From the IMG/VR virus record IMGVR_UViG_3300017751_000168, positions 1-27,457 of that record: a stretch of DNA of 27,457 nucleotides; one strand, given 5' to 3'. Shown piece by piece: positions 664 through 26,790 of the stretch (its first letter is position 1; every line of letters begins with the position of its first letter). The DNA comes from a virus. The notes under the pieces were generated by a model. It searched no databases. It had not been told where the DNA came from and worked only from the letters and a program-made list of their open reading frames with translations. The position numbers were made by a program, and so were the translations under genes.

Positions 664-912
664 CTATAGTTTCTCTACTAGTTGTGAGAGTAATGATTTG
701 ATGTCAGAGATATCACTCTCTAACACGTCAACCTTATTTCTCAGTTTATCCTCTTCTGACTGTTTTGCCAGTCTCTTTTTCTTTGCATCCTTTGCTTTCT
801 GGATACTACTTCTATTTATATTAATAATCGCACCAGATTCGGGATCTCTCACCAAATCTGGTTCATCTTGTACCTTTACATAATCATCAAAATTTTTAGT
901 TGGTCTTTTCAT
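664..912 (-). CDS. Small coiled-coil protein (82 aa) between giant baseplate protein and fibre
   Basis: This 82-residue, highly charged protein has two parts. Residues 1-35 contain a short DPESGAIININRSS segment. Residues 36-82 form a Lys-rich helix (AKDAKKKRLAKQ) followed by a heptad-like coiled coil (VDVLESDISDIKSLLSQLVEKL region). It has no signal peptide or membrane segment. The ATG overlaps the stop of the upstream 1983-aa gene by one base (TAATG) and its stop abuts the next start, so it is translationally coupled on both sides. I do not recognise a named family. The coiled coil and its position suggest a small trimeric connector or assembly factor for the neighbouring fibres, which is inference only. 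Confidence 0.85.
   Translation of the reverse strand: MKRPTKNFDDYVKVQDEPDLVRDPESGAIININRSSIQKAKDAKKKRLAKQSEEDKLRNKVDVLESDISDIKSLLSQLVEKL
813..820 (-). promoter_or_regulatory. Possible late-promoter octamer TATAAATA inside the 82-aa gene
   Basis: The minus strand reads TATAAATA, the exact T4 gp55-dependent late-promoter consensus. It lies inside the coding sequence (encoding part of ININRS), about 145 bases before the fibre start at 663. The other octamers in this window lie 21-35 bases from a start after allowing for the usual start-site offset, so this one fits less well. It may be a chance match or an internal promoter for the downstream fibre gene. Confidence 0.35.
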
Positions 913-3900
913 TATGTTGCCAATGCAATTACTCTTAGGTCACGGAACGATGGTACATGTGCAGAACTTATACTACGCATTACAATCTTAACTTGGAACT
1001 GTGTAAACTCTGGTAAGTTACCTTCATCTCCACCAACTAAGTAACGATACTCACGGAAAGTATTTGGATTAATATCTGGTTGTATCGTTGACTCTGGTTC
1101 TATAAGTGCCCATGTCATTTTATCAATGTTAGCAGATCCTTCCTGTGCTACTTTGAAATACATTTGGAAGTCTGCCTGTGGTGGTCTATTTGCGGCGACC
1201 ATAATTTTCAAACCAGTTGCCGGTACAGACAAAGTAGTTACCTTAGTAATATGCTTTGCGGACTCAGTACCAAAACTCGGAGACAACTCTGAGATATATG
1301 TTAATGGTACGTTATATCCATCGGTAGCGGCAGAATCTTGTCTTGAAATCAAGTTATGCATAGTCATAACATTTGTTGACTGCAAGTCAAGGATAGGTGT
1401 TAAGAACGGATTAGTTGTAGTCATGTTGACCTGTACATCTAATGAACGTCCACCTGCCATTTTACCGGCACCTGTTTGGTCTTCAGTACGTCTGTTATAA
1501 ATTGCACGAGCATTATTATACCTAATGTTAGCACCATCTTCCACAACCTCAAACTTCGAATCTTTAACGAATCTAGTTTCTGTTCCGGCAAGTGATTGCT
1601 GAGTCACACCTTTTAATGATACAGTTATGTTAGTATTGGATGGTTGAGTGATTCCCATATTTGGTCGTATAACTTCGTAGTTTACGTTCTGTGATGAAGT
1701 TACTGTCTTACCACCAAACCACTTACGTGAAGTAGCAGTAGCATCTGCTTGATAAGTATATCCAGAATTATCCATTCCAGTAACAACTCTTATACCGTTA
1801 ACCTGTGCACCAGTTAATCCATTTCCAAAGTTAGTTGCAGAATCAATACCACGAATATTAGTGATATCACCTACTCTCAAACCATGGTTACCAAACATAA
1901 CTCTAACTGAGTTAGAACCGGCATCAACAATTAAAGGATCCTTTGCAAGTGCTTCTGGTTCTACGTTAGTGTTGTGTAACATTGCGGTACCAGATGTTGC
2001 AAATCTAGCAACGGTAAGTCTATATGCAAGGTCTGTATCAGAAGCAGGTTCCCAAATTCTAGAGTTCTGAGATTTAAAGAATGATCCAAGAATAGGTTGT
2101 TGTTGAATACGTGCTTCGGTAGTACCTAATTGGAACTCACCTACTTTACCTACATATACATTAAAGTCTGGATCATTTTCTAACGGTCTTAGACAGATAG
2201 CATATTCACCAGGCGCAGATAAGAACGTTGGTGGTATTGAAAATGTTGTACCGTTCTGTAGCATAACTTTGTTTGTAGCACCATCTGGTACTACATTAAT
2301 TTGAGATGCCATTAATACAGTGTCTTCTATAATTTGTGAAGAAGATGGAACACCATTTATTGTTGGACGAATTTCCATGGCAACACCGGTAGAACCTTTA
2401 GATGAGAAGAATACTTCTACATCTGTAAGCATTACACCACCTGCTTGTGATATTTGGAAAGTCTGAGCAATAGGATCGTGATATATGCCATACTCACCTT
2501 CATAATCATTGACACGTCCACCTTGAGCAACTGCTCCTGTGGTACCATAACCATCAGTCCCAGCGTCAGGGTTGGTGCCACCGGCAGGTGTACCAGTATC
2601 TGAACTATGGTCTGCGACAGGCCATATACCATCCCATGCTTCGTATTCTATTGTCTGTCCTGCATATTCTGTAGTCGTAGTTTGATTACCAACAATAACA
2701 CCTTGAGTTTCAGATACTCTTACGTCTGTAGCGATAGTTTCATCAACAAGTGTTTCTGTCCAAGTAGTGAAAGCACTAGTAGTTTCTGATTCACTGCTAG
2801 TAGTTTCTGAACCTACAATTTTAAGTGTACGAACAATGTGAATATGTTCTTCTCTTGTTTCTAGTTGTCCCGCAGATGTAAAGATAGCAGAACCACTTGA
2901 AATAGAGGAAACTTTATCAGAACTGTTAACATCGTTTAAATCAAACACACGTTGCCCAGTACTAAACTTCATTGCACTGTTACATGGAACTTCAAAAGAT
3001 CCTATAATAGTACCATTAGCATCTGAGATTAAATTACTTTTACCTCTACTATGTTCTTGAGTAGGTTTCTTAACACCGTCATTATCTTTGTACGTTGCGG
3101 CGTTCTCAATATGTTTAGTAGACATTTCTTTAAATGCAGTCTCTTCTCTACAGAATGATGAAACATTTGTATTATCAAAGAATGGGAAGTATTGAGTATT
3201 TGGTCTACATCCGTCTGCTTGGAAAAATATTTCTATTGAACGCATAATTGGCAATACGGTAATACTAAGAAGATGATCACCAACTACTTCACTGATAGAT
3301 GATTCAGATGCCACACGGTTTACTGTATTACTTGTTGTAGTAGTTGTAGTAGTTTGTTGCTCTGATTGATATGTGTTAGTAGTCTCTATCGTCCTAGTCT
3401 GTTCGTAGGTAGAGGTGTTGACTGTATTAATACCAGTTCTAGTTTCAGTAGTAACAACATCCCACATATCTGTAGTAATGATATCACCCCACCAGTATTG
3501 TCCCCAATCCCAGTAACCGTAACCTGTTCCAGATCCACCTAGACCGAAGTCTCCGGTAAAATATCCACCACCCCACTCATAACCACCGTACCAACCAGAC
3601 CAGTCAGTCCACTGTCCGTCTGTCCAGTTCCACCATGAGTCAATAGCACTACGTGATATTTCTTCGGTACGTTCTCTTGATATTTCTACAGTTTCAGTAT
3701 ATAATGTTTCTACGTCTGTTACAGTACCGACTTCAACCCATTCTCCTAATGTTTCAGTAGTTTCACTACCAATAAGAATTGGATCTGTATTATCCGTAAC
3801 TACTGTAGTTGAGGTAGCACTAGTAAATCCATTCGTATCACCCACTTCTAATGTATCTGGATCAACACCATACCATGAATTTGCTGAGTTATTCCAGTTA

Positions 3901-6863
3901 AGTGCTTCACGAAGATCAAGTTTTGTGCTTTTACCTACAACTTTCTGTCCAACATACTCAGTATCTTTCCACCTATCAACTTCTGGTGAAATTTTCATTC
4001 TCAATAGAGATTTGTGCTGATAAAATGGTGCGAGGTTTTCTGTACCAGATGCAAGTTCTTGTGCTTCGAATAGTTGTCCAGTATAGTTAAGTACTACCTT
4101 ATCACGTTTAATTTTAGTAACACCAGTCGTTAAGACATCAGCAGAATCAAAGAATAAAGAAACGTTTTCTTCTGGTGCTCTTGGTCTTAATGTTTTATTC
4201 GGCCCATCGATTGCTGATTTAGCACCTTCACCTTTGTTTTGTGTATGTTGATGGTCTACAAATGAATCTACAAAGAAACCAGATTTTGCACGGTCTCTAC
4301 CACCACTATCAAGAACATCCATAAACTTAGTATTCAGTTCTAGTAATGATAATGCAGTAACTTCTTCTAGACGTTCTACTTTCTTTTCTAGTTTACCGAT
4401 ATCTGCCATCGTGAATCCCTTACGTGGAATCAACGTTTGCGTTATATCTTCGGTATGCATAGTATTTGGTTCCATACGAATATTGTATAGATCCATAGAA
4501 CCTTCTGGGATAGCAGGATATTTCGGATTAAGAGATGATGAACCTCTAATAATTTTTAGACCTGCTTCTGGATTGATAATTAGTTTGTCTAAACGTGGCA
4601 AGTAATATGTTGCATCCGCAGTAATAGTATCACTTGGCACTGGTAGTAACGGTACATTGTTATATACACCGTAACCATTAGTAGATGGACGGAAATCAAT
4701 AACATCTCTTAGAGAGACTTTGTTACCGTCACGTAATGTCTGAGCAGGTATTTTTAGGTAATCTACTTCACCGTCATATGAGTTGACTGCGAAGAATGCT
4801 CCAGACGCATCCGGAGAGAAGTGTTTAAACCTAACAAATACTGGTTGGTTAGCACTATCTAATCCACCACCTTGATAAAGCAATCTACCATCTTCATACG
4901 ATTGCATACGAGCACCGGCATCGAATCTAAAGTGTGGGAATATATCTTCACCATCCGAGTCATGTTTTCTAACTCTATCGACAGAATATATATCAGATGC
5001 TCCAAGTTTAATAACAGACCAACCTTTACCGTCACTATCAAGTGTACTGGTAACAGTAGTTTCTACTAAATCTTTATTCTTAACAGCAGAATTTGTCTTC
5101 TTAATGAATCCAATTACTTCATATGCTTTACCACTTGTCAAACCACTTAAACGTAAAACTTTATTGTTTGACTGTAATGAGGCAGACACTCCAGAAGGCA
5201 TCCAATCATCTGTAGCGGCAATGAGTACATCCGATACGTTTACAAACGATTCTCCGGCATCTGTTAAAGTAATGTCTTTTGTAGCGGCACTCGCAGTAAA
5301 GTTATACTTCTTCATAAATGTATAAGTTACATCTAAGAATGATTTTGGTCTACGAATAGGAGCATCAAATAATAAACCTGCCTTTTCTTGCTCATATATG
5401 TGGTTAATATTATTTTTGTCTCGTACTACAGTAACATAGTGAGTATTAGTGGCAGACTTAACTGACATTACGTCACCGATAGACTTAGTTAAATTAGTGA
5501 CTTGTACGTTAAACAAGTGAAGTTTGTATGCGGGTGTACGTGCAAATTCTACTGCACCACGACCAGATTCAACACGGAGTCTACCTGCCGGTTCACCTTG
5601 AGTAATGGCACGAACATTGGCAGTACCAATTTTGGTACCCGTACCGTTTGCGTTCGGTAAGAGGTCAACTGTTTCACATGTATCGACATCAAGCATACCA
5701 ACACCAGAATCGAAATACATGTAGTTACCATAACTAATACCAATTTGATCTTCACTTCTTTCAATCGTTTCGGTTGCTCTTTTTAGAGGAAGAATTTTAG
5801 GTGAGTCGGTTTTTACTCTTTTACCTTGAATATAAGCAGAGCCTGGATCTACTATAAGTTTAAAGTAGTCATCTACAGTTCCATCTGCTTTGTAAATTGA
5901 TTTACCGTTTGGAGTAACACGTGTTTTCCAATACTTCTTAATGAAGTCACCGGCAAGGTCGTTGATTCTTTCATCAACATATTTAAATGTTTTGTGTTCT
6001 GCTTGTTGTACACCACCTTCGAATCGTCTACCTGCTACAACACGACCTACATGTAAGTACGTATCACCCGCAACAACATCATTTCTCTTAGTTAAAATAA
6101 GACGAATACGTAATCTGTCTGCGCCAGGCGATGATCTGTTTGGAGTTGCCGCTTGGTTATCATACAATGCATCTGTATCAGTAACTGTTATGATATCTTG
6201 AACTACTTTAAATCCGTAGTCTACTGTTTGGTTGTTCTTGTACTTGTCTAAGAAAATCTTTTGCTTATCGGCATATACAAAATGACCGGCAACAAAGAAG
6301 TCTGTGGCATTAGTTTCAACAATAGAACCAAAACCAATAGCACGGTTAGTAGTGGTATTTGTAGTTTGTACAGTTAAGTTAATATTAGATCCATTACTTA
6401 AAACTTCACCCAGTGTCACAACAACATTATCTGTTTGTTGATTAGCAGGTGAAATAGTATTTGGATTTTCTAGGTATTGGACATAAATAGTATCCGGATC
6501 TGATCCGACAGCGGCAACTGCTTCTACTACTCTAACCTTTATACTAGAGGTTGCACCAGTAAGTACTGTACCCTCAAGTGTGCTAATATCATCAAAAGAA
6601 TTATTGGCATCGTTTGATATTTTAATATACGAGTATGTGTTAGTTACAGCACTACCACCCGCAGAAACCTCAACACCATCTTTTTCTAGAACATACATTC
6701 CAAAACGAGCAATCTCTTTCTGGAGAATCGTTTGTAACTGAGTTAATTCACGTGCCTGTAGAGCACGACCTGCGTTAAAGAGTATACGATGATAATTATC
6801 GCTATCTTTATAATCGTCCTTATACGTTGAACGTAATGTTTGTTCTGTTAAAGTAGTTGCCAT
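912..6863 (-). CDS. Giant DUF4815-type baseplate/tail-fibre structural protein (1983 aa)
   Basis: At 1983 residues this is the largest gene in the window. Its N-terminus has the motif RALQARELTQLQTIL (about residues 33-47), which I recognise as typical of DUF4815 phage structural proteins. A later segment near residue 1462 (HDPIAQTFQISQAGGVMLTD) starts a beta-sandwich common at the far end of such proteins. In between are beta-rich domains, a Trp/Tyr/Gly-rich low-complexity stretch (about 1076-1127) and Thr/Ser/Glu-rich flanks. It lies directly after gp8, where T4 has genes 9-12, so it probably takes the peripheral baseplate or fibre-network role of gp10/gp12; that is inference from position. 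The start is supported by TAGGAAAT a few bases upstream. Its 3' end overlaps the 82-aa gene by one base. Confidence 0.85.
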   Translation of the reverse strand: MATTLTEQTLRSTYKDDYKDSDNYHRILFNAGRALQARELTQLQTILQKEIARFGMYVLEKDGVEVSAGGSAVTNTYSYIKISNDANNSFDDISTLEGTVLTGATSSIKVRVVEAVAAVGSDPDTIYVQYLENPNTISPANQQTDNVVVTLGEVLSNGSNINLTVQTTNTTTNRAIGFGSIVETNATDFFVAGHFVYADKQKIFLDKYKNNQTVDYGFKVVQDIITVTDTDALYDNQAATPNRSSPGADRLRIRLILTKRNDVVAGDTYLHVGRVVAGRRFEGGVQQAEHKTFKYVDERINDLAGDFIKKYWKTRVTPNGKSIYKADGTVDDYFKLIVDPGSAYIQGKRVKTDSPKILPLKRATETIERSEDQIGISYGNYMYFDSGVGMLDVDTCETVDLLPNANGTGTKIGTANVRAITQGEPAGRLRVESGRGAVEFARTPAYKLHLFNVQVTNLTKSIGDVMSVKSATNTHYVTVVRDKNNINHIYEQEKAGLLFDAPIRRPKSFLDVTYTFMKKYNFTASAATKDITLTDAGESFVNVSDVLIAATDDWMPSGVSASLQSNNKVLRLSGLTSGKAYEVIGFIKKTNSAVKNKDLVETTVTSTLDSDGKGWSVIKLGASDIYSVDRVRKHDSDGEDIFPHFRFDAGARMQSYEDGRLLYQGGGLDSANQPVFVRFKHFSPDASGAFFAVNSYDGEVDYLKIPAQTLRDGNKVSLRDVIDFRPSTNGYGVYNNVPLLPVPSDTITADATYYLPRLDKLIINPEAGLKIIRGSSSLNPKYPAIPEGSMDLYNIRMEPNTMHTEDITQTLIPRKGFTMADIGKLEKKVERLEEVTALSLLELNTKFMDVLDSGGRDRAKSGFFVDSFVDHQHTQNKGEGAKSAIDGPNKTLRPRAPEENVSLFFDSADVLTTGVTKIKRDKVVLNYTGQLFEAQELASGTENLAPFYQHKSLLRMKISPEVDRWKDTEYVGQKVVGKSTKLDLREALNWNNSANSWYGVDPDTLEVGDTNGFTSATSTTVVTDNTDPILIGSETTETLGEWVEVGTVTDVETLYTETVEISRERTEEISRSAIDSWWNWTDGQWTDWSGWYGGYEWGGGYFTGDFGLGGSGTGYGYWDWGQYWWGDIITTDMWDVVTTETRTGINTVNTSTYEQTRTIETTNTYQSEQQTTTTTTTSNTVNRVASESSISEVVGDHLLSITVLPIMRSIEIFFQADGCRPNTQYFPFFDNTNVSSFCREETAFKEMSTKHIENAATYKDNDGVKKPTQEHSRGKSNLISDANGTIIGSFEVPCNSAMKFSTGQRVFDLNDVNSSDKVSSISSGSAIFTSAGQLETREEHIHIVRTLKIVGSETTSSESETTSAFTTWTETLVDETIATDVRVSETQGVIVGNQTTTTEYAGQTIEYEAWDGIWPVADHSSDTGTPAGGTNPDAGTDGYGTTGAVAQGGRVNDYEGEYGIYHDPIAQTFQISQAGGVMLTDVEVFFSSKGSTGVAMEIRPTINGVPSSSQIIEDTVLMASQINVVPDGATNKVMLQNGTTFSIPPTFLSAPGEYAICLRPLENDPDFNVYVGKVGEFQLGTTEARIQQQPILGSFFKSQNSRIWEPASDTDLAYRLTVARFATSGTAMLHNTNVEPEALAKDPLIVDAGSNSVRVMFGNHGLRVGDITNIRGIDSATNFGNGLTGAQVNGIRVVTGMDNSGYTYQADATATSRKWFGGKTVTSSQNVNYEVIRPNMGITQPSNTNITVSLKGVTQQSLAGTETRFVKDSKFEVVEDGANIRYNNARAIYNRRTEDQTGAGKMAGGRSLDVQVNMTTTNPFLTPILDLQSTNVMTMHNLISRQDSAATDGYNVPLTYISELSPSFGTESAKHITKVTTLSVPATGLKIMVAANRPPQADFQMYFKVAQEGSANIDKMTWALIEPESTIQPDINPNTFREYRYLVGGDEGNLPEFTQFQVKIVMRSISSAHVPSFRDLRVIALAT
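3483..3638 (-). other. Trp/Tyr/Gly-rich low-complexity segment within the giant baseplate protein
   Basis: These 52 codons (about residues 1076-1127, from SWWNWTDGQW to QYWWGD) contain 11 Trp, 6 Tyr, 2 Phe and about 16 Gly by hand count. They contain no Lys, Arg or His. The flanks are rich in Thr, Ser and Glu, including a run of seven Thr close downstream. The composition is unlike the rest of the protein. No frame disruption is seen, so it is part of the product. Confidence 0.85.
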
Positions 6864-12798: not shown

Positions 12799-13399
12799 CG
12801 TTATCGAGCACTTCTATTAGTTCATTCTTTGCAAAAAGTTGACCATTATAAAATGTCTCAACTTTACGTTCGAAATAAATAGAGAAGTCCTCTGGTACTT
12901 TAGGAACCTCTATTGCTATCTGAGCAGTAAGGGATCCGTCTGGATTCCAGTTATCGTACTCTAGTGTTAGTTTTTGATAGTGCCCGTAATCTTTCCAGTA
13001 CTCTGCCAGATCAAATGTTCGTTCAAAATCAATCTGACCAGACTCATCAACTAATCTATAAACTACTAATTCACCGTCTTGTTTCTTCAAGTTATCTCCG
13101 GCAACTGTCTCCAAAGGCCCACCTCTATACACACCTTCTATCACTACTAGTCTTACATCCTTAAACATATCAGTATTGTTATTAATCATACGGAATAGTT
13201 CTGCGTGTAGATACAAGTTACGTGCGAGTTGCTTACGTGCATCTTGATCCGTCTGATACTTTTTGATAGATGTCAAACTACATGGATTGCCTTTAGATCC
13301 AAGAAATTTAGAAAGTGCTACGCCAGGCGATAACTTTAGACTAGAGTCGATAGTCTCTGCAAAGTTTGGATTATAATTTTGGTCTGGTACTATTATCAT
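12794..13399 (-). CDS. Conserved-looking baseplate-cluster protein of unknown function (201 aa)
   Basis: I do not recognise a named family. The protein begins MIIVPDQNYNPNFAETID, has a helical segment QLARNLYLHAELFRMI (about 59-74), then an alpha/beta part with VRLVVIEGVYRG and VVYRLVDESGQIDFERTFDL, and ends with a beta-rich KVETFYNGQLFAKNELIEVL. There is no signal peptide or membrane segment, and no His/Asp/Glu cluster that would suggest a hydrolase. It lies between the gp5 needle gene (ATGA overlap at 13396-13399) and gp25. In T4 that interval carries small genes 5.1-5.4. A tail or baseplate assembly role is inferred from position alone. Confidence 0.85.
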   Translation of the reverse strand: MIIVPDQNYNPNFAETIDSSLKLSPGVALSKFLGSKGNPCSLTSIKKYQTDQDARKQLARNLYLHAELFRMINNNTDMFKDVRLVVIEGVYRGGPLETVAGDNLKKQDGELVVYRLVDESGQIDFERTFDLAEYWKDYGHYQKLTLEYDNWNPDGSLTAQIAIEVPKVPEDFSIYFERKVETFYNGQLFAKNELIEVLDNV

Positions 13400-14832
13400 T
13401 TAAATCTCTTTCCTCTATTATTAACAGAGTTGCCTAGTGCCGTATATCCAAATCTAGGTGACGTACTCTTCTTAGCAATACGTCCCGTCTTTGGTGGGAA
13501 AGGTTTACTCCACTCAGCATTCAATTGTTTTTCACCTATCAATAAGTCTACTACGACTGTTCCTTCATCATTCGCAATTGTTTTATTTGCCGGATCTCTT
13601 AACGTAGAACGAATCTCATCCATAGTAGGAACTTTTTCGTATAATCCTGCATAGTCATCTCTGAACAAAAGAGTATTACGTAAATCATCCTTGGGATCAA
13701 TAGCAATTGCTCTAATAGATAAATGACCATCTGATAGTATACCCGCAACTGCATCACATATCGGTATAGGTTTTACTGGTGCAATGCTTTCCATATTAGT
13801 AGGAACATCCGGAGCACCACCACTTGGTTGTCCAGGCGATTCTTTATCTGCTTTCTTCGCAGTCTTAGCATTCTCTGCTTTATGTGCAAACTTAGACTTG
13901 ATTGCTTCTAGTGCTTGTCCGTGGAATGAACCATAGAAAGATGCACCAGATGTAAATGGCACTGCACCCTGCGGCCCCATGTATACAGGAGATGTCATCT
14001 CTACCTGTTCACCACCCATCACACCTTTCATACCTATAACTGATATTTCTGTTGCAGATATGTTTGTCTGTAGTGCGGACATAGCAATTTCTTCTTCGGC
14101 AGATACTTGGAATCTATTGGCAGTAAATATTTCTGCCTCTGAACCAATGTTGTTCTTCCAGTAACCTTTTACGATATGGTCTTCATTACCCAATACAGTT
14201 CTTGCTTCGTGTTCTACTGTCTTATATACTGCCGTACCTTTTGTTGTGTAGTTTGTATTGAGACCTACCTTGGTTTTATTATTCTTACGTATATCAGTAT
14301 TGACGTTTCCATCTACAGAAACATTATAGTCACCCCCGACATTTACATTGTAATCTCCTGTTACTTCAAGGTTTAGATTACCATTATACACTAATTTTCC
14401 GTTACCTTCAACTATTACTGTCTGATCACCACCAGTAACTTCTACTTTATTGTTAAGGGCGGCAATGACCACAGATCCGTCTGCACGTACTTCAACACCG
14501 GCACCTTTTCTGTGCTTAATAAGAATACGTTCTCCGCCAGGCGTATCATCATAAGATACGATATGACCAGACGCAGTTTCTTTTACTTGGTTGAAAGGAA
14601 AACGAGATGGTTCTTGATCCTCTAGATTAAGATCTGTACCAATTGTACCACCACCAACATAAAGGTTTTCTACTTTTAATCCACGAGCAGAACGATTGAT
14701 AGACGAACCATAAAAATATTCTTGCTTGGGATATTCCCCTGTCGGATCTTGAAACCCATCATGTGGGACACCTTCGGTGTTCTCGATTGCAGGATTATTA
14801 CCTAGTGGTTCGTTTTTAGTTGTAGTTGTCAT
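13396..14832 (-). CDS. gp5C: Spike needle protein: gp5 C-terminal beta-helix as a separate gene
   Basis: This 478-residue protein is the needle half of T4 gp5. Residues about 24-33 (DGFQDPTGEYP) match T4 GFSDPTGQYP. Residues about 75-115 (ETASGHIVSYDDTPGGERIL) match T4 ETESGHIQEFDDTPGQERYR, just before the T4 needle. From about 128 there are at least six octads of the VxGxxxxx type (for example NLEVTGDY, NVNVGGDY, NVSVDGNV), the triple-stranded beta-helix repeat that pierces the outer membrane. T4 gp5 ends soon after the helix. Here roughly 200 more residues follow: an Ala/Lys stretch (SKFAHKAENAKTAKKADKE), a Pro/Gly linker and a C-terminal domain with no family I recognise. There is no OB fold or lysozyme in this protein; those are in the upstream genes. 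Confidence 0.88.
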   Translation of the reverse strand: MTTTTKNEPLGNNPAIENTEGVPHDGFQDPTGEYPKQEYFYGSSINRSARGLKVENLYVGGGTIGTDLNLEDQEPSRFPFNQVKETASGHIVSYDDTPGGERILIKHRKGAGVEVRADGSVVIAALNNKVEVTGGDQTVIVEGNGKLVYNGNLNLEVTGDYNVNVGGDYNVSVDGNVNTDIRKNNKTKVGLNTNYTTKGTAVYKTVEHEARTVLGNEDHIVKGYWKNNIGSEAEIFTANRFQVSAEEEIAMSALQTNISATEISVIGMKGVMGGEQVEMTSPVYMGPQGAVPFTSGASFYGSFHGQALEAIKSKFAHKAENAKTAKKADKESPGQPSGGAPDVPTNMESIAPVKPIPICDAVAGILSDGHLSIRAIAIDPKDDLRNTLLFRDDYAGLYEKVPTMDEIRSTLRDPANKTIANDEGTVVVDLLIGEKQLNAEWSKPFPPKTGRIAKKSTSPRFGYTALGNSVNNRGKRFK

Positions 14833-16799
14833 ACTGGTCTCACGTTTACTAGTTCTTTTCTAGATTTTGATGTTTCGGTTAATGGATCCTTGTATATGGA
14901 TTTCTTGCCAAACTTGTTTTCAACATAAGATAATACATCGAAATATGGATCTTGAGATTTCGCATCGATTGCATTATGCCCTAATACCTGTCCACCCGAA
15001 CACTTCTTATAGAATGCTTCGATAATAGTCTCCAAAGATTTCATCTGTGCTTGTGTAAATGATGTGGATGATAGATTAAGTAATGGGTTATCTGATTCAG
15101 ATGGAACGTTAACACCACCCACTAAACACACATCAATACAATTAAACTTGTGCCTATTGACATCACTAGCATCTGCAATTTTGTTTAAAGGTAATGCACG
15201 TTGTACTGTACCATCACGTCTTACTACGTAATGATATTGAATACCTACGTGTCCGGCATCGTTATGTCTTAGTTGTATTTCTTCTGCACCTATGTTAGCA
15301 TTTGTATATGTCTCACTAGCATGTACTATAAGTTCTGAAAACTCACGACTCGCTTGATGCATCTCTAATTCTAATTCTTCTTTAGAGTCTACATAAGTAA
15401 ATTTTCTAACATACCTATTGTATCGTTTTGCTAGTTCTTGTAGATCTAAATCTTCTGTATAAAATTCACCCACAGTAGATACCACAGATCCGGATATGGT
15501 AGCATCAATTTGAGATAAGGCAGTTTCAACTGTTCCTGCTTTTGCACTAAACTGATCGATCTCTGTTTGTGGAATTTTCTGTGCTTTTGCTTTTGTTACA
15601 ACATCCGTGGTTAATTCAGCAGGTGATTCGGCAGTTGACTCCCTAATAATCTTTTGGAGTTCTGGTGAAGTATTTCTATCTGCACCAAGTAATGTTTTAG
15701 TGGCACGTGTTAAGTTGATGTCACCACCAGTCATTACGTCTGACATTATACTACTTATTAAACTATTGTCAAGAGGTACAAGATTTCCGAATAGTCCTTG
15801 TAATTGGTTTCCTACATTACCAGTCAATTCTTCGAACAGGTTAGATAAATTACCTAGTTCCGATTCTATACCAGATGTGACATTACTTACTAGGTCACCT
15901 ACAGCATTTCCTAATCCTTCAACTACCCCAGATAGTCCATCTCCGATAGCATCCGTTACTTGACTTAATGTAGATCCTATTGCTCCGGAAAGACTATTAG
16001 TGGCAGTGGCACTTGCCTGTGCTACTGTATCACCAATACCTTCTACTGCACTTACCGCACCTGCGACTTCATCCAGTAATGCTCCGGAGTTTGCTTTGCT
16101 TTTTACTTCATCCATCTTAGATGTTACATCATTCATGGCAGAAGTCAGTTCTGAACCCAGTCCAGTGGATCCACCTTGATCTTGTTTGGTAGAGGCACTT
16201 GCAACTGCGGAGATCTCTGATAATAAACTTGACTTTCTTTCGGATGCCACTTCTATGGCACCTGCAATCTCATCTAATGCACCACCACCAAGTGATACAA
16301 TAGTAATAGGTTCGATTGGTGGTACAATGCCTGTGAGTGATGTAGTTAAAGCATCGAGTGACTGTGCCACACCCGTACCTGCCATTGATATGGTAGCAGA
16401 AATAGTATTAACACCATTAGCACTGTCACGTCCTACAAGATCATTAGCACTATCAAACACCAGATCAAATCCCGAATCGATTGTCTGTACTACAGTAGCA
16501 ATACCGGCAGATACCCCAACTGAAAATGATGAGGCACTCGTTGATGGGTATGATGTGTTGCTAGGTAAACATTGTACCATGTTGTCTGCGGTGCTAACTG
16601 CTCCACTAACAGTACCTGCAAGATTGTCTAAACTCTTTATACCATTAACCGTTTGCCCAACGTCTTGACCTAATACTGTTGTTTTGTTAACAACAAGTGC
16701 GTCATTAATCTTATTGACCTTATCATTGATATCAACTGAATAGGACGTTGCCTTAGTGTTACTGATTAGTTTTGCATTTATTGTTGATAATTGAGACAT
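14829..16799 (-). CDS. Tail-associated T7-lysozyme-like N-acetylmuramoyl-L-alanine amidase (656 aa)
   Basis: The C-terminal domain (about 485-640) is a zinc amidase of the T7 lysozyme/Amidase_2 family, which cuts the MurNAc-L-Ala bond of peptidoglycan. Aligned by eye to T7 lysozyme: IVHASET (H493; T7 H17), IQYHYVVRRDGTVQ (Y522; T7 GYHFIIKRDGTVE), DVCLVGG (T7 GVCLVGG), FTQAQMKSLE (T7 FTPAQMQSLR) and GHNAIDAKSQDPYFD with H608 and K614 (T7 H122, K128). The third zinc ligand, Cys130 in T7, appears to be D617, as in AmpD-type enzymes. The first 480 residues have few aromatic or basic residues and many Ala/Gly/Ser/Val amphipathic segments (GDGLSGVVEGLGNAVGDLV), resembling membrane-active or tape-measure-like sequence. 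It lies between the OB-fold and needle parts of gp5, overlapping the needle gene by ATGA, so it is likely the spike's peptidoglycan hydrolase. Confidence 0.9.
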   Translation of the reverse strand: MSQLSTINAKLISNTKATSYSVDINDKVNKINDALVVNKTTVLGQDVGQTVNGIKSLDNLAGTVSGAVSTADNMVQCLPSNTSYPSTSASSFSVGVSAGIATVVQTIDSGFDLVFDSANDLVGRDSANGVNTISATISMAGTGVAQSLDALTTSLTGIVPPIEPITIVSLGGGALDEIAGAIEVASERKSSLLSEISAVASASTKQDQGGSTGLGSELTSAMNDVTSKMDEVKSKANSGALLDEVAGAVSAVEGIGDTVAQASATATNSLSGAIGSTLSQVTDAIGDGLSGVVEGLGNAVGDLVSNVTSGIESELGNLSNLFEELTGNVGNQLQGLFGNLVPLDNSLISSIMSDVMTGGDINLTRATKTLLGADRNTSPELQKIIRESTAESPAELTTDVVTKAKAQKIPQTEIDQFSAKAGTVETALSQIDATISGSVVSTVGEFYTEDLDLQELAKRYNRYVRKFTYVDSKEELELEMHQASREFSELIVHASETYTNANIGAEEIQLRHNDAGHVGIQYHYVVRRDGTVQRALPLNKIADASDVNRHKFNCIDVCLVGGVNVPSESDNPLLNLSSTSFTQAQMKSLETIIEAFYKKCSGGQVLGHNAIDAKSQDPYFDVLSYVENKFGKKSIYKDPLTETSKSRKELVNVRPV

Positions 16800-16800
16800 C

Positions 16801-17676
16801 TTATACCTTCTTGTTTGCGTACAGTTCGTATATTCTTAACACTTCGTCATTGTAGTCACCTAAGATCGGTGCATAGTGCCTACCTATAATATCACCTAGT
16901 GCCTTACCTTTACTCTTATCAATGATATCTGAGTTAAGTATGCGAATGTTTGCTTCTGTATGTGATGTATTTAGTTCGTATAATATAAATGCTAATTGGG
17001 TTGTGTATGTAAACCATTCGTTGTTAAACTGCTTTAATCGGGTGAAACGTACTCCGTTCCATCCCATCAATCCCATATTACCCTCTTTTTCTTGAATTGT
17101 GTCAAACCCACTATTGTTCTTAGATATTGCACCAGTCAATGCAGTTGCTTGTTTTATAGTATAACCGTTTGATAAAAAGAACTTTACCGCAAGATCTCTA
17201 CGTAACTCAACGGTTTTAGTGTCCAAAGGCCCGTCTTCGTTACGGTATTTATTTTTGATTGCTTCGTTCTCTTCATCTAATGTTGAGATAGACTGATTGT
17301 AAAACTCTTGATCTGGATCGACTCTATCTGCTAAATCATCATATGCAATGCTTTGTTGTATGGGGGTGGGATATTCTGTACGTGGAAGTGATCCCAATAC
17401 TAGAGGTACTTGAGACTCTTGTCCATCCATGAACATACCAAAGACTAACGCACCTGCTTTTAAATCTGGAGACGTACCAATACCAGACACACCACCTTCG
17501 GTAGTTGGCAAGACACATTGTGCCCACGGCAAGTCATTCTGTGCTACTTGCCTAGTGGTTGGATTGTGTACTCCATGTATACGCACACGTACTCTACCCT
17601 CATATCCAAATGGAGGCGTGCCATCAATAACTGTTCCGATAAACCATCTGGTTTTATCACCATAGAAACTATTCAT
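16801..17676 (-). CDS. gp5: Spike protein: gp5 OB-fold with lysozyme-like domain lacking the usual Glu
   Basis: Residues 1-105 match the N-terminal OB-fold of T4 gp5: TRWFIGTVIDGTPPFGYEGR and VRVRIHGVH against T4 NWFVGVVEDRMDPLKLGRVR and VRVVGLH, then LPWAQCVLPTTEGGVSGIG against T4 LPWMSVIQPITSAAMSGIG. In T4 this fold sits on the gp27 trimer. Residues about 150-260 look like a phage tail-lysozyme (Phage_lysozyme2-type) helical domain: LAVKFFLSNGYTIKQATALT, SGF, then MGLMGWNGVRFTRLKQF and a helix ending LYELN. At the position where that family has ESG with catalytic Glu, this protein has N188-S-G, so it is probably not an active muramidase. The gene ends before any needle repeats; those are two genes downstream. 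It overlaps the gp27-like gene by eight bases. Confidence 0.82.
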   Translation of the reverse strand: MNSFYGDKTRWFIGTVIDGTPPFGYEGRVRVRIHGVHNPTTRQVAQNDLPWAQCVLPTTEGGVSGIGTSPDLKAGALVFGMFMDGQESQVPLVLGSLPRTEYPTPIQQSIAYDDLADRVDPDQEFYNQSISTLDEENEAIKNKYRNEDGPLDTKTVELRRDLAVKFFLSNGYTIKQATALTGAISKNNSGFDTIQEKEGNMGLMGWNGVRFTRLKQFNNEWFTYTTQLAFILYELNTSHTEANIRILNSDIIDKSKGKALGDIIGRHYAPILGDYNDEVLRIYELYANKKV

Positions 17677-21267: not shown

Positions 21268-21773
21268 TGAAAACTTACAAAGGAAAGTATAAAATTAAGA
21301 ATCCAGACAAATATCTGGGGGATCCAAAGAACGTAGTATATCGTTCTGGTTGGGAACTCGCAGTTATGAACTGGGCAGATACTTCTCCGCAAGTTAAAAA
21401 GTGGGGCAGTGAAGAGACTGTTATACCTTATATATGTGAAACTGACAAGAGAATACATAGATACTTTATGGATTTTTCTATACAGTATGATAATGGTAAG
21501 ATTGTATTGGTTGAAGTAAAACCGCATCAACAGACATTACCACCCAAGACTGGCAAGGGGGTGTCTCGTAGAAAGATATTAAGTGAGGGTATGACTTATA
21601 TTAAAAACCAGAGTAAGTGGAAGGCGGCACAAGAATATGCCCTAGATAATGGGTGGCATTTCGAAATCTGGACTGAAAATGAATTGAGACATATGGGACT
21701 ATTACCTAAACCTATGGGTAAGAAACCCTTTAAACCATTAAAGAAATTGAAACCATACAAGAGAAAAAAATGA
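21267..21773 (+). CDS. gp4: Head completion protein gp4 with nuclease-like (PD-(D/E)XK/TnsA-type) motif
   Basis: This is the T4 gp4-type head-completion protein, needed to finish DNA-filled heads before tail joining. The start at 21267 gives MKTYKGKYKIKNPDKYLGDP, the usual start of the family; an upstream TTG at 21243 would add eight unsupported residues. The product has 168 residues. Conserved stretches are VYRSGWELAVMNWAD, KKWGSEETVIPY and RIHRYFMDF. E30, D69 and E83-V-K85 are arranged as in PD-(D/E)XK nucleases such as TnsA, so trimming or cutting DNA is a plausible activity (inference). The C-terminus is Lys-rich (PKPMGKKPFKPLKKLKPYKR). There is no clear Shine-Dalgarno sequence. Its stop overlaps the sulfotransferase ATG by ATGA. 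Confidence 0.9.
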   Translation: MKTYKGKYKIKNPDKYLGDPKNVVYRSGWELAVMNWADTSPQVKKWGSEETVIPYICETDKRIHRYFMDFSIQYDNGKIVLVEVKPHQQTLPPKTGKGVSRRKILSEGMTYIKNQSKWKAAQEYALDNGWHFEIWTENELRHMGLLPKPMGKKPFKPLKKLKPYKRKK

Positions 21774-22375
21774 GCAAAGTATTTTTTATAGGAATGAACA
21801 GAACAGGGACAAAGTCCTTTCACCATTTGTTTACACAGTCGGGATACGAGTCGGTGCATTATAGTACATATAATCCAGAAGGTGGGCCACCACTCGTCAT
21901 TGGTGAAATGATAAGTGATCGAGCAGAAATACCACGTCATAATAGAAAAAAACTCCTACATGGTGCTGAAAGGTTTATTGCATACAGTGATATGTTTTTT
22001 CATAGACAACATAAATGGTGCGATGGGGTTAAACTCTTCAAACAACTAGAGGCAGAGTATCCCGATTCATATTTTGTTTTACAAACAAGAGAGATGGAAG
22101 GATGGTTGCGTAGTAAAAAAAACCATAAAGACGGAGAATACCTTCATCGATCAATGATATATCATAGAAACAAATCGAGTAATAAAATGATGGAATGGTT
22201 TAGAAAGGATCGTGATGAGCACCATAAAGCAGTAAGAGATCATTTCAAGGATAGTGAAAGGTTCATCGAGTTTGATATTGAAGAGGATAATATAGAAAAA
22301 TTTATTAACTTCATGCGTCAAGCAGATATAACTTTATTGAAAGGACATTGGAAACATCTTGGTAAAAGTGTATAA
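21770..22375 (+). CDS. Sulfotransferase family protein (PAPS-dependent)
   Basis: The 201-residue product has the two PAPS-binding motifs of sulfotransferases. The 5'-phosphosulfate loop is VFFIGMNRTGTKSFHHLF (4-21, core RTGTKS). The 3'-phosphate motif is PDSYFVLQTREMEGWLRSK (98-116) with R107 and S115. The family moves sulfate from PAPS to hydroxyl or amino groups of sugars, lipids, proteins or small molecules; the substrate here is unknown. The late part (FIEFDIEEDNIEKFINFM) resembles the end of the family's core domain. At about 200 residues it is short for the family. No membrane segment or signal is seen, so it should act in the cytoplasm. It is coupled to gp4 by ATGA overlap and sits in a late structural operon, so it is probably made when virions assemble. 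It looks like an accessory gene inserted between conserved ones. Confidence 0.85.
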   Translation: MSKVFFIGMNRTGTKSFHHLFTQSGYESVHYSTYNPEGGPPLVIGEMISDRAEIPRHNRKKLLHGAERFIAYSDMFFHRQHKWCDGVKLFKQLEAEYPDSYFVLQTREMEGWLRSKKNHKDGEYLHRSMIYHRNKSSNKMMEWFRKDRDEHHKAVRDHFKDSERFIEFDIEEDNIEKFINFMRQADITLLKGHWKHLGKSV

Positions 22376-22405: not shown

Positions 22406-22987
22406 ATGTCTGATATTTTTAACAGATTAGAACGTAATGCGTTCCGTGCAGGGATAACACCCCGTACAGCAGAGTCACGTAAGTGGTTTATGAAGAAAGC
22501 AATGAACATGCGTTCTATTAACCGTGAAGCATTGATGAAGGAAGATCCGATCAAGTCACGTAGTAAACAGATCATTGGTGGCATGTATATGTTCACATAT
22601 GATCCGAAGCATAAAGAAACCTTGCCTTACTACGACATCTTTCCTCTTGTTATTGTTATCGGCCCTGCAAAGGGTGGGTTCCTTGGATTGAACCTACACT
22701 ACTTACCACCTAAGTTACGTATGCAATTCTTTGCAAACCTAATGGATATACAGGGTAGTAAGAAATCAGATGATGAGAAATTCTCTCTTACATACAGAAC
22801 ATTAAAGAAAGCATCCAACTTGAGATACTTTAAACCTTGTATAAAGCATTATTTAAATTCTCAAGTAACAAGTAAGTTTGCAGAAGTGGAAGCACCAGAG
22901 TGGGAAGTGGCAATCTTCTTACCAACTGCACAGTTCCGTAAGGCAAATAGTTATAAAGTACATTACGACAGTAGGCAAATGATATGA
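22406..22987 (+). CDS. Conserved T4-like phage protein (193 aa); hub or DNA-end-protector candidate
   Basis: The central region, GGMYMFTYDPKHKETLPYYD then FPLVIVIGPAKGGFLGLNLH and YLPPKLRMQFF (about 58-110), is a pattern I associate with a widespread protein of T4-like phages. I cannot settle which T4 gene it is. The N-terminus is helical and basic (RKWFMKKAMNMRSINREALM). The C-terminus (EWEVAIFLPTAQFRKAN) also looks conserved. Candidates are gp2 (DNA end protector, a neighbour of gene 4 in T4) and a hub protein such as gp28 (near 26 and 29 in T4). It has its own late promoter. The next gene overlaps its stop by ATGA. Confidence 0.85.
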   Translation: MSDIFNRLERNAFRAGITPRTAESRKWFMKKAMNMRSINREALMKEDPIKSRSKQIIGGMYMFTYDPKHKETLPYYDIFPLVIVIGPAKGGFLGLNLHYLPPKLRMQFFANLMDIQGSKKSDDEKFSLTYRTLKKASNLRYFKPCIKHYLNSQVTSKFAEVEAPEWEVAIFLPTAQFRKANSYKVHYDSRQMI

Positions 22988-23712
22988 GTTTTTCAGTAGA
23001 AGATCTTCAAGGGCAGATATCCCAGTCTGGTGGATTAGCACAGAAGCATCAATTTTTAGTGCAACTTCCACAACTAACTGGGTTTACAGCAGATGCTCAA
23101 GAGTTGAATCTATTCTGTACGGTTGCCGCCATACCGGGCCGACAGATCATGTCGTTGGATCATGTTATCGGAACTACTTCAAGAAAGATGGCAAACGGAT
23201 ACGCAACAACAGATATGACAATGACTTTCCTTGTCGCAAACAATCATGCAGTACGTGATTACTTTGAGCATTGGCAGTCATTAGCACACAACCCAGTAAC
23301 TAAAGAGATTGGATACTTCGAAGACTATACTCGAAATATTAAAATCAAGTTACTCGAAAGAGGTTTAAGGATGTCTTTAATTAAAAAGCAATTAGGGTTC
23401 ACAGATAAGATCCCTAGTTTCATTAGGGGGAGACTCCCGAAAGTTGGGCCTATCGATCTATCACAAGGTGAATTAGATATAGGTGCATCGTTTAGAGATA
23501 AAGAGACATATTCTGTAACACTTTTAGAATGTTTCCCTACTACGTTGGTTGACCAACCATTGGGTAATGCTGAAGAAGGAGTAATGGAGTTGAGTGTACA
23601 GTTATCATTTACTGATTATGAATCAGAACTTGGTGACTTTACTAAACAAGGTGAAAGTATTGCACGTGGCGGATTAGGTGCCCTTGCAGGTTTCATTAGT
23701 GGTAAAATATAA
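22984..23712 (+). CDS. Tail-tube-fold protein (gp19/gp54-like)
   Basis: The 242-residue product shows the tail-tube pattern. After an N-terminal extension come NLFCTVAAIPGRQIM (the PG of tube proteins), YATTDMTMTFLVANNHAVRD then YFEHWQSL (the F-x-V/A followed by W-x-x-W-type stretch), YFEDYTRNIKIKLLERG, and near the end VTLLECFPTTLVDQPLG with EGVMELSVQLSFTDYE, which parallel the YPTT and final beta strand of T4 gp19. T4 gp19 is 163 residues. The extra length and the location next to hub genes (gp26, gp29) rather than the sheath gene suggest the tube initiator gp54 or a gp54 analogue. gp48 is across the divergent promoter. The ATG overlaps the upstream stop (ATGA). Confidence 0.8.
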   Translation: MSFSVEDLQGQISQSGGLAQKHQFLVQLPQLTGFTADAQELNLFCTVAAIPGRQIMSLDHVIGTTSRKMANGYATTDMTMTFLVANNHAVRDYFEHWQSLAHNPVTKEIGYFEDYTRNIKIKLLERGLRMSLIKKQLGFTDKIPSFIRGRLPKVGPIDLSQGELDIGASFRDKETYSVTLLECFPTTLVDQPLGNAEEGVMELSVQLSFTDYESELGDFTKQGESIARGGLGALAGFISGKI

Positions 23713-23736: not shown

Positions 23737-24444
23737 ATGGCATTGCCTAAGTTAAATAACAACCCAAAGTATAAGTGTACGGTACCCTCTAGTAAAGAGG
23801 TAGTAACATACAGACCATACTTGGTGAAAGAAGAAAAGGTTTTGATGATAGCATTTGAAACTGGTGATCAGAAACAAGCATTGGGAGCAATCGTAGATAC
23901 TCTAGATGCATGTATTGACGGTGATCAGAACGTAGGTGACTTGACTACATTTGATGTGGAGTATTTGTTTACTCAGATCAGATCTAAGTCAGTCGGTGAA
24001 ACATCTAAGATACTAGTACCATGTGGTGCATGTAATCATAAGAATGAAGTATCAGTAAATCTGGCAGATATCGAAGTCAAGTTTAAAGAAGACTTCACTG
24101 ATAGAGTTCAGATTACGGATGAAATCTCTATTGAGATGAAGTATCCGACATACAGTCAAGTAATCAATATGGATTTTGAAGGTGACCAGACTGCTATGGG
24201 TATGGACATTCTTTGTAATTCTATCAGTGCGATTATGACTGAAGAAGAACGAACAGATTGTAAAGATATTAAACAGGAAGAGATTCAAGAGTTCTTAGAC
24301 TCTATGACATCTGAACAGTTTGGTAAACTATCCGCTTTCGTAGAGACACTTCCTTCTCTCGAAAAGGATCTCAAGGTTCCGTGTGAATCTTGTGGAGAAA
24401 CTATTGAAAGGACATTAAAAGGTATATCGGATTTTTTATCATAA
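23737..24444 (+). CDS. gp26: Baseplate hub protein/tail assembly chaperone gp26 (zero-frame product)
   Basis: This 235-residue protein matches the T4-type gp26 baseplate-hub family. It has an N-terminal KYKCTVPSSKEVVTYRPYLV, then KEEKVLMIAFETGD, then FDVEYLFTQIRSKSVGE (73-88). It ends with the family's F-x-x-x-LP-x-L pattern (FVETLPSLEKDL, 201-212). Two Cys pairs, C96-x2-C99 (CGAC) and C216-x2-C219 (CESC), look like a zinc ribbon. It lies just before the tape-measure gene, where many phages have tail assembly chaperones. AGGAG (23724-23728) eight bases before the ATG is the strongest ribosome-binding site in this block. The last codons contain T TTT TTA (24432-24438), which could send some ribosomes into the -1 frame to make a longer product. 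Confidence 0.9.
   Translation: MALPKLNNNPKYKCTVPSSKEVVTYRPYLVKEEKVLMIAFETGDQKQALGAIVDTLDACIDGDQNVGDLTTFDVEYLFTQIRSKSVGETSKILVPCGACNHKNEVSVNLADIEVKFKEDFTDRVQITDEISIEMKYPTYSQVINMDFEGDQTAMGMDILCNSISAIMTEEERTDCKDIKQEEIQEFLDSMTSEQFGKLSAFVETLPSLEKDLKVPCESCGETIERTLKGISDFLS
24432..24438 (+). promoter_or_regulatory. Candidate programmed -1 frameshift site, T TTT TTA
   Basis: In the gp26 frame the end reads GAT TTT TTA TCA TAA, so bases 24432-24438 are an X XXY YYZ heptamer, T TTT TTA, the type used at the HIV gag-pol junction. Slipping back one base lets both tRNAs re-pair and opens a frame of 64 further codons to 24632. The zero-frame stop follows only one codon after the heptamer. A downstream stem TTGGTC/GACCAA (24462-24467 with 24479-24484, loop of 11) could help, although it starts further away than is usual for a stimulator. 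Confidence 0.72.
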
Positions 24445-24632
24445 ACCTTTCTCACGATAATTTGGTCAATCATTATAAGACCAATTTTTCGTTGATGCAA
24501 CATCATCATTATAGTCTAAGTGAAATGGATATGATGATGCCGTGGGAAAGGGAGATATACGTAAGCATGTTATTAGATTATATTAAGGAAGAAAACGACA
24601 GAATTAAACAGGAAAACATGAGAAGGCAGTAA
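24438..24632 (+). CDS. -1 frame extension of gp26 (tail assembly chaperone long form, GT-like)
   Basis: Read in the -1 frame after the slippery site, this stretch is open for 64 codons, IINLSHDNLVNHYKTNF onward, to a TAA one base before the tape-measure ATG. With the first 234 residues of gp26 the fusion would be 298 residues. The added part has a coherent, charged, protein-like sequence: HHHYSLSEMDMMMPWEREIY, then a helix LLDYIKEENDRIKQENMRRQ. This resembles the short frames that marine T4-like phages and other tailed phages carry just before the tape measure. The frame has no ATG before 24495, and I see no ribosome-binding site there, so frameshifting explains it better than independent initiation. 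In lambda the analogous gpG/gpGT pair binds the tape measure. A free-standing 45-aa protein from 24495 is the alternative. Confidence 0.7.
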   Translation: MINLSHDNLVNHYKTNFSLMQHHHYSLSEMDMMMPWEREIYVSMLLDYIKEENDRIKQENMRRQ

Positions 24633-24633
24633 A

Positions 24634-26790
24634 ATGGCAGACAACATATCACTACAAAAGTCAATCGATATGCTCCGTGTCGAGAATGCGAAGGATGCTG
24701 AAAATAAGCAGTCCAGAGATTTAAGGCAAGAAAAGGAACTAGTCAACTTGAACAAAAACTTCAAGAAGTTCCTTGACGGTGTTGCGGGCGGAAAGAAAGA
24801 CGAAGAGGAAGAGAGACGGGATAAGAAGAAGAAGAAACCATCTTCGGCAGGATCCCCTATCGGTGATATGGCATCAGAACTAAAAGGTGCAAACCTTGGT
24901 ATCGGTTCAATGATCGGTGTGTTGACTGCGGCGGTTGCCGGTCTTGCTGTAGGTATTGCTGAGACAATAGGTCGTTTTGTAAAGAACATTCTACCCAAGT
25001 CTTTTCTAAATGCCTTGAGCAATATGAAGAATGCTTTCATAGCAGGAACCAATGGTGTCAAGAGTGTATCCAAAACTACTAATGGTGCATTCAAAAAGAT
25101 GGGATTCATTAGTAGTGCAATCAATAAAGTAGGTAAGACATTCTTCCTTATAGGAAAGGGTTTTGAAAAAGTAGGTAAAATTGCATCTAACATACGTGCC
25201 ACTGTAAGTGGTAATATATCGAAAGGTGTCACTACAATGCAATCCGCATTTAAAACTCTGACTAAACCATTCACTGCAATTAGTAAGGCACTGGGTGCTA
25301 CTACTAAGTCTACTGGATTAGTTACCACAGTATTTGGTAAAATAAGTGGGTTCTTTAGTAATTTAGGTAAGGGTATTAAGTTACCCAATATGAATTTATT
25401 CTCTAAGGTCTTTAGTGCATTCCGTGTTATTGGTGGAAAGATTCCAGTCATAGGACAGATCATTGCAGTCTTCATTGGTATCTTCGATGGTATCAAAGAT
25501 GCTTTCGCACAGACAGGTGATCTTGGTGATAAGATCATTCGTGGTATATACTCTGCGATTGGTGCGGGACTAGGATTCTTCTTCGGTGGTCTACTAGATC
25601 TTGTAAAGAATGGATTGAGTTGGATACTATCTAAGTTCGACTTCACCAAAGGAGTGAGTGCATGGTTAGATAGTTTCAGTTTTGAAGAGATGATCATTAG
25701 TTGGTTCGATTTCCTTGGTGATACGTTAATTAATATAAAGAGAAGTATTGGAGAGTTCGTATCCAACTTCAGTATCGGTGAATTCATCGATAATCTTTCT
25801 GAGTCATTCTTTGGCATGGTTGATTCTATCGGAAAAGCAATCAGTGGTGGTATTACATCGATAAAGGATAGGATTGCTAACTTCTCTATTGGTGATGCAC
25901 TTGCCGGTGCTTTGGATTGGGCACATGAGATGAAAGAATCACTTAAAGCATTTATCCGTGGTACACTTCCAGATCCGGATTCATGGAAAGGTATGCTGAT
26001 CCCAGATAAGATATATGATTGGGTTGGTGAGGCAAAACCAGAACCAAAGGTAGTGAAGGAAGAATCTGGTGGTGAACTAGATCCTGTGGATGTTGTTCCA
26101 GAAGACGCACTTACTCAAAAAGATGTTATTGGTATTACCGCAGAAGAACAAGCAAGTAATATGGCATCAATGCAGGCGGCAAGAGACGCACTATCTAGTG
26201 ACGGCCCAGTAGAAGAAGAAGACTTCCATATGCAGAATGATGATGGAGATGATGATCTTGATTCAATCTCTGCCGAAGACGTGGAATCAAATGTAGTCGC
26301 AATAGATCCAGAAACAGCGGCATTCTTGAAAGAACTAGAAAGTCCAGAGTTTATTGCTGAAGCAAAAGCAAAACGTGAAAAACGTGAAGCAGATATGTTG
26401 AAGATGCAGGAAGAGGCGGCAATACGTAGAGAAGAATTCCGAAAGGCAGATGAAGAAAAGTATAGGTTGAGTCTTCTAAGGAGAGAAGAAGACTACAAAA
26501 TGATGCTCGAAACTGGTGTCGATCATCGTAGTGGTAAAGAGTTAACAGATGCTCAGAGAGCAATGGCAGAAAAAGGACTAGTAAGGATTGATAAGATACA
26601 AGCACGTAAGGGTTATGATATCGATCAAATGTCTAAAGAGAATGCACAAAATTCTGGACAAACCAATGTGAATGTGGTAGCACCACAAACCTCTACTCAG
26701 AATGTAAATAACACTGCACAGACTACAGCAGTTATGGATGCAAACCATTCAACTGTAGATCCAAACGACAGACAAGCAAGTTTTGGGTAA
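24634..26790 (+). CDS. gp29: Tape-measure-like tail protein (gp29 role)
   Basis: The 718-residue protein directly follows the candidate chaperone frame, the usual place of the tape measure (T4 gp29: about 590 residues), which sets tail length inside the tube. It starts with a charged helix (1-70, ending RRDKKKKKPS). Hydrophobic helical segments follow: GIGSMIGVLTAAVAGLAVGI (about 88-107), IPVIGQIIAVFIGIFDGI (about 270-287) and IYSAIGAGLGFFFGGLLDLV (about 304-323). Amphipathic Ile/Phe/Gly/Lys-rich repeats lie between them. The last 250 residues are acidic, then a long Glu/Arg/Lys coiled coil (about 560-660), and end in a Gln/Asn/Thr-rich tail. The membrane-like helices fit proteins that enter the host membrane during ejection. 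AAGG lies seven bases before the ATG. Sequence similarity to T4 gp29 itself is not visible to me; the call is by position and composition. Confidence 0.82.
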   Translation: MADNISLQKSIDMLRVENAKDAENKQSRDLRQEKELVNLNKNFKKFLDGVAGGKKDEEEERRDKKKKKPSSAGSPIGDMASELKGANLGIGSMIGVLTAAVAGLAVGIAETIGRFVKNILPKSFLNALSNMKNAFIAGTNGVKSVSKTTNGAFKKMGFISSAINKVGKTFFLIGKGFEKVGKIASNIRATVSGNISKGVTTMQSAFKTLTKPFTAISKALGATTKSTGLVTTVFGKISGFFSNLGKGIKLPNMNLFSKVFSAFRVIGGKIPVIGQIIAVFIGIFDGIKDAFAQTGDLGDKIIRGIYSAIGAGLGFFFGGLLDLVKNGLSWILSKFDFTKGVSAWLDSFSFEEMIISWFDFLGDTLINIKRSIGEFVSNFSIGEFIDNLSESFFGMVDSIGKAISGGITSIKDRIANFSIGDALAGALDWAHEMKESLKAFIRGTLPDPDSWKGMLIPDKIYDWVGEAKPEPKVVKEESGGELDPVDVVPEDALTQKDVIGITAEEQASNMASMQAARDALSSDGPVEEEDFHMQNDDGDDDLDSISAEDVESNVVAIDPETAAFLKELESPEFIAEAKAKREKREADMLKMQEEAAIRREEFRKADEEKYRLSLLRREEDYKMMLETGVDHRSGKELTDAQRAMAEKGLVRIDKIQARKGYDIDQMSKENAQNSGQTNVNVVAPQTSTQNVNNTAQTTAVMDANHSTVDPNDRQASFG

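Follow-up and report, generated by a model that had tools for sequence, protein, structure and literature searches.

A conserved slip site at the end of gp26 in marine T4-like phages, with a probable -1 frameshift to a long tail assembly chaperone

We analyzed a 27,457-nt IMG/VR record, IMGVR_UViG_3300017751_000168 (the window), which comes from a marine T4-like phage, and conclude with roughly 93% probability that a -1 frameshift at the end of its gp26 gene yields a long tail assembly chaperone (TAC). The slip site, its phase, its conservation, the coding character of the -1 frame, and the homology to T4 gp26 and gp51 are established from sequence. By comparison of relatives, the predicted frameshift is conserved across marine T4-like phages but misannotated as two genes. 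The central idea, that gp26 and gp51 of T4-like phages are chaperones of the frameshift type, was in essence already published in 2022, judging from papers that cite that study (see below); what this analysis adds is how widely the arrangement is conserved, along with modest Shine-Dalgarno (SD)-like signals upstream and hairpin signals downstream of the slip site.

The slip site and the -1 frame in the window

The features on which the reading depends are as follows.

22984..23712, plus strand: tail tube protein gene, directly upstream of gp26 (phrog_45, 6e-29)
23737..24444, plus strand: gp26, the putative short TAC (TAC-N, lambda G-like), 235 aa (PF12322 T4_baseplate, phrog_150)
24432..24438, plus strand: slippery heptamer T TTT TTA, in the right phase for -1 tandem slippage
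24438..24632, plus strand: -1 frame extension, 64 codons plus TAA, the predicted C-terminal domain of the long form (gp51 C-terminus; TAC-NC, lambda T-like)
24442..24444, plus strand: zero-frame stop TAA ending the short form
24634..26790, plus strand: 718-aa tape-measure-like gene directly downstream, so called from position, hydrophobic segments, and composition only

The gp26 gene matches PF12322 at 2.2e-57 (194.7 bits against a cut-off of 24.5) and phrog_150 at 1.4e-61, and it stands between the tail tube gene and a gene that is tape-measure-like by position and composition only. Its last codons are GAT TTT TTA TCA TAA, and the first base of the heptamer is the third base of a gp26 codon, which is the phase needed for a -1 slip. 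An open -1 frame runs from 24408 to 24632, a single base (24633) lies between the extension stop and the ATG at 24634, and the fusion would have 234 + 64 = 298 residues. Its predicted junction peptide is GISDFLIINLSHDNLVNHYK, and the short form ends in GISDFLS. An earlier note, made from the letters of the window, had claimed the in-phase heptamer, the frame open to one base before the next ATG, and the fusion of 298 residues, all of which were borne out. It was also right in that no start codon of the extension has a convincing ribosome-binding site: anti-SD pairing of the ATG and TTG codons in the extension ranges from +0.3 to -3.1 kcal/mol, whereas gp26 reaches -7.3 and the gene downstream -5.4. 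Its naming of the gene at 24634 as the tape measure fits position and composition but found no backing from family models, as profile and sequence searches returned no convincing Pfam or PHROG family match and no phage match.

Elsewhere in the window, the gp5 hub/tail lysozyme is apparently split (13396-17676, minus strand): the piece at 16801-17676 matches the N-terminal part of phrog_430 (15-109), the piece at 13396-14832 matches a later part (331-556), and a 656-aa protein with an amidase domain (phrog_822) lies between them. A sulfotransferase-like gene (21770-22375, plus strand; PF17784, 1e-12) sits between a gp4-like head closure gene and a gp2-like DNA end protector, and a 1983-aa protein matching phrog_358, of unknown function (912-6863, minus strand; 1e-276), adjoins the baseplate wedge genes.

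Conservation of the heptamer among relatives

Relatives were gathered from IMG/VR, in a sample skewed toward relatives of the window, and from named phages. Once the two-gene T4-type loci, a fragment, and a locus truncated immediately past the slip had been set aside, 89 nonredundant loci (gp26 <90% identical) were kept. Comparison of gp26 ends had been suggested as a check on the reading of the window, and both heptamer and -1 frame persist in nearly all relatives, with an in-phase T TTT TTN close to the end of gp26 in 87 of 89 loci. In the gp26 alignment, the codon preceding the slip ends in T and the following F codon is TTT in 87/87 loci, compared with TTT in 50 to 82% at other well-conserved F columns; the third slip codon is background-like, being TTT in 61% of the loci with F. 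Outside the slip site, an in-phase TTTTTT occurs at 9 of 20,187 codon positions of the 87 gp26 genes; at the slip site it occurs in 87/87. The heptamer is thus present far beyond chance. The conserved-site counts take loci as independent, ignoring relatedness, and the same treatment gives a chance of ∼10^-31 for T at both wobble positions throughout, a figure that is overstated since the loci are related.

Heptamer-bearing Straboviridae include Aeromonas phage AsFcp_2 and Vibrio phage nt-1, and the two-gene T4 state was found in Edwardsiella phage PEi20 and Acinetobacter phage ZZ1. Relatives without the heptamer but with a start and ribosome-binding site of their own for the extension did not appear, save for Vibrio phages D494 and K469. 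In both, the heptamer is missing, the -1 frame extension is retained, and an ATG overlaps the gp26 stop. Because these two keep the extension without the heptamer, a second route to it exists; they may reach it by re-initiation, and they possibly represent a natural switch from frameshifting to re-initiation. No large tape-measure-like gene directly follows in D494 and K469. In nt-1, phiN3, YB07, and XG4, the heptamer is present and an ATG also overlaps the gp26 stop, and a separate small extension product is possible in these phages.

Evidence that the -1 frame is read from the slip point

From the heptamer onward, 90 nt form a gap-free alignment of 65 sequences. In 80/85 loci, the P of a conserved P(W/F)ER motif is found exactly 34 codons past the slip, and in the hard-fused T4 gp51 there are 33 residues from the junction to the same P. 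The zero-frame stop has no fixed place and falls 7 to 34 nt past the start of the heptamer. In the -1 frame, variation peaks at third codon positions, both overall and within the first seven codons past the slip. We conclude from these comparisons that the extension evolves as a -1 frame protein.

Alternatively, the extension might be a small gene in its own right (gp51), with translation beginning at a start codon of its own or through coupled re-initiation past the gp26 stop. Public records do annotate a distinct “baseplate hub assembly catalyst” gene, and the overlapping ATG of the six phages named above would suit re-initiation. We consider this reading highly improbable overall. In 60/85 loci, the -1 frame contains no ATG, GTG, or TTG between the second codon upstream of the slip and the eighth codon downstream, and the best SD pairing of later possible starts averages -1.1 kcal/mol, whereas gp26 starts average -5.5 and those of the next gene -4.3. 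The first in-frame start within the extension of the window is a TTG without SD, at 24462, and the annotated starts in C48C1, Melnitz-2, and Mosig truncate a conserved LSHDxLxNxYKTNF block. A separate gene also leaves unexplained why the two wobble bases of the slip are conserved in 87/87 loci and why T4 gp51 is fused.

Identity of the extension and the T4 genes

On its own, the 64-residue extension matches phrog_634 (gp51, “baseplate hub assembly catalyst”) at 1.1e-25; a weaker match, at 8e-6, is to the C-terminus of phrog_150, the gp26 profile. BLAST aligns the window fusion with nearly all of T4 gp51, junction included, and by this homology the extension is the C-terminus of T4 gp51. A search against T4 gp51 had been proposed together with the description of the extension as a charged helix; that description holds as far as helices are predicted, but the extension is more than that, namely a C-terminal domain with real homologues (phrog_634).

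T4 gp26 consists of the PF12322 domain only, and T4 gp51 has that domain at 1-201 plus the extension and matches phrog_150 nearly end to end. T4 gp51 is thus a gp26-type domain with the extension, and T4 holds the short form (gene 26) and the long form (gene 51) separately. T4 and the window share the PF12322 domain, the C-terminal extension, and the junction spacing, but in T4 the two forms are separate, divergent (oppositely oriented) genes, whereas the window has one gene and a -1 slip site. In a tree with an arbitrary root, T4-type gp26 and gp51 group together, apart from the slip-site lineages, with middling support (83/79); this is compatible with a duplication on the T4-type branch. The assignment of gp26 as the G-like short form and of the fusion as the GT-like long form, made in the earlier note, is therefore well supported by the phrog_634 and phrog_150 matches and the layout of T4 gp51.

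T4 gp26 and gp51 are listed as hub assembly chaperones by Leiman et al. 2010 (PMC3004832), and gp51 is needed in tail assembly and is not in the virion (PMC3004832). Sullivan et al. 2010 (PMC3037559) reported cyanophage and marine vibriophage gp51 without the first ∼200 residues. A frameshift from gp26 would account for these “missing” residues: what is there a short gene would here be the end of a product whose missing part is gp26 in the preceding frame.

Predicted folds

The AlphaFold model of gp26 is confident (pLDDT 94) and widely matches predicted phage “baseplate hub” proteins. Against the PDB, its matches with a probability of at least 0.5 among the matches listed were solely the HK97 tail assembly chaperone 2OB9 and its homologue 3FGX, at probability 0.51 to 0.60 and E values of 0.6 to 2.5 (below significance). 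These fold matches are in line with the chaperone reading and on their own are not significant. The gp26 profile found no relative among PDB sequences, and the 64-residue extension, predicted as helices, gave no match in a fold search.

Proposed mechanism and possible stimulators

We infer slippage, its frequency, and the chaperone mechanism as follows. In a fraction of the ribosomes decoding TTT TTA, the P- and A-site tRNAs would shift back by one base and pair anew on T TTT TTA. Slipped ribosomes would bypass the TAA a few bases on and translate 64 further codons to give the 298-residue long form, whose C-terminal helices probably touch the tape measure protein encoded next. The short form would make up the bulk of the copies, as in lambda G/GT.

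The two frames could also be joined in the transcript, by RNA polymerase stuttering on the T run and adding one U, and the run is indeed 7 to 8 long in about half of the relatives. It is exactly 6 T in the window, shorter than the runs known to give transcriptional slippage, and the last heptamer base is not T in 40/87 relatives. Polymerase slippage would moreover need no codon phase, and the phase is identical in 87/87; we give this explanation even less credence than a separate gene. A single heptamer in one AT-rich contig could arise by chance, but the comparison of relatives refutes both a chance heptamer with an open frame and a longer gene broken in two by a sequencing error: the arrangement recurs in 87 nonredundant loci and in named isolates, an error cannot recur in all of them, and codon positions of the -1 frame show selection.

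Two candidate stimulators flank the slip site of the favored ribosomal frameshift.

24417..24423, plus strand: candidate upstream SD-like stimulator AAAAGGT, weak in the window (-3.9)
24454..24492, plus strand: candidate downstream RNA hairpin, with core TTGGTC (24462-24467) and GACCAA (24479-24484), from synonymous resampling and pair counts

The upstream SD-like stretch is strong in many relatives (GAGGG/AAGGGG), and the anti-SD energy has a family mean of -5.87 against -5.00 under synonymous resampling (p = 6e-5 with loci taken as unrelated). The GG at -11/-10 from the heptamer is nearly invariant across relatives because of a conserved glycine. Downstream of the slip, folding of the first 60 nt in the window has a z of -4.4 against synonymous resampling; across the family, the mean z is about -1.5 for 60 nt starting 12 to 18 nt past the heptamer start and near zero beyond. 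The commonest hairpin register scores 0.245 in pair counts, compared with 0.197 when shuffled and at most 0.124 when slid, and a second register, that of the window, likewise exceeds its controls. RNAalifold found no consensus structure in the 90-nt region. The candidate hairpin begins 15 to 20 nt after the heptamer, farther than usual stimulators, and its pairing register differs by lineage; its role as a stimulator is suggestive. We tentatively propose, as a possibility of modest likelihood, a three-part frameshift element in which an SD-like stretch ∼10 nt upstream and a register-shifting hairpin 15 to 20 nt downstream are kept as tuned signals across marine T4-like phages. If so, these two signals together with the slip site would set the ratio of short to long form.

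Relation to known systems and significance

The layout resembles that of lambda G/GT, in which a short form and a long form reached by -1 frameshifting are encoded immediately ahead of the tape measure gene; the likeness is one of layout, and no sequence similarity is claimed. The lambda slip heptamer is G GGA AAG, whereas that of the window and its relatives is T TTT TTN. Xu, Hendrix and Duda reportedly treated lambda G/GT and other frameshifted TACs in 2004.

Among the T4-like phages themselves, the TACs and their short/long logic were identified by Vladimirov et al. 2022 (Virology 566:9-15), according to the papers that cite it (PMC10885494, PMC12846349). The PRFect paper (PMC10885494) cites Vladimirov, Gautam and Davidson 2022 for some T4-like phages having separate short and long TAC genes rather than frameshifting, and a 2025 paper (PMC12846349) cites the same work for poly-T slip sites in TAC-N genes of T4-like phages. 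The tie of gp26 and gp51 to the general chaperone system, put forward in the earlier note, is thus supported by sequence but is not new, going by these citing papers. Beyond these papers, our literature search turned up no report of a frameshift in gp26/gp51. A TAC frameshift with a GTTTTT motif in Vandenendeviridae and Andersonviridae (PMC12846349) likewise has a poly-T slip near the TAC-N end and a -1 frame that is open family-wide and annotated as a hypothetical gene, but these families differ from that of the T4-like phage of the window.

The extension is present in 551 public records, where it is listed as a gene of its own, as a hypothetical gene, or not at all, and the joined gene is marked in none of the records inspected. 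Among Kyanoviridae records, it is unannotated in S-CAM1 and ACG-2014b, and the Mosig gene is truncated, its start lying within the conserved block.

The general frameshift rule for TACs would extend to cyanophages, pelagiphages, and other marine T4-like viruses, which are among the ocean's most abundant tailed phages. Together with T4 genes 26 and 51, these phages would present frameshifting and gene duplication as two ways to one product pair.
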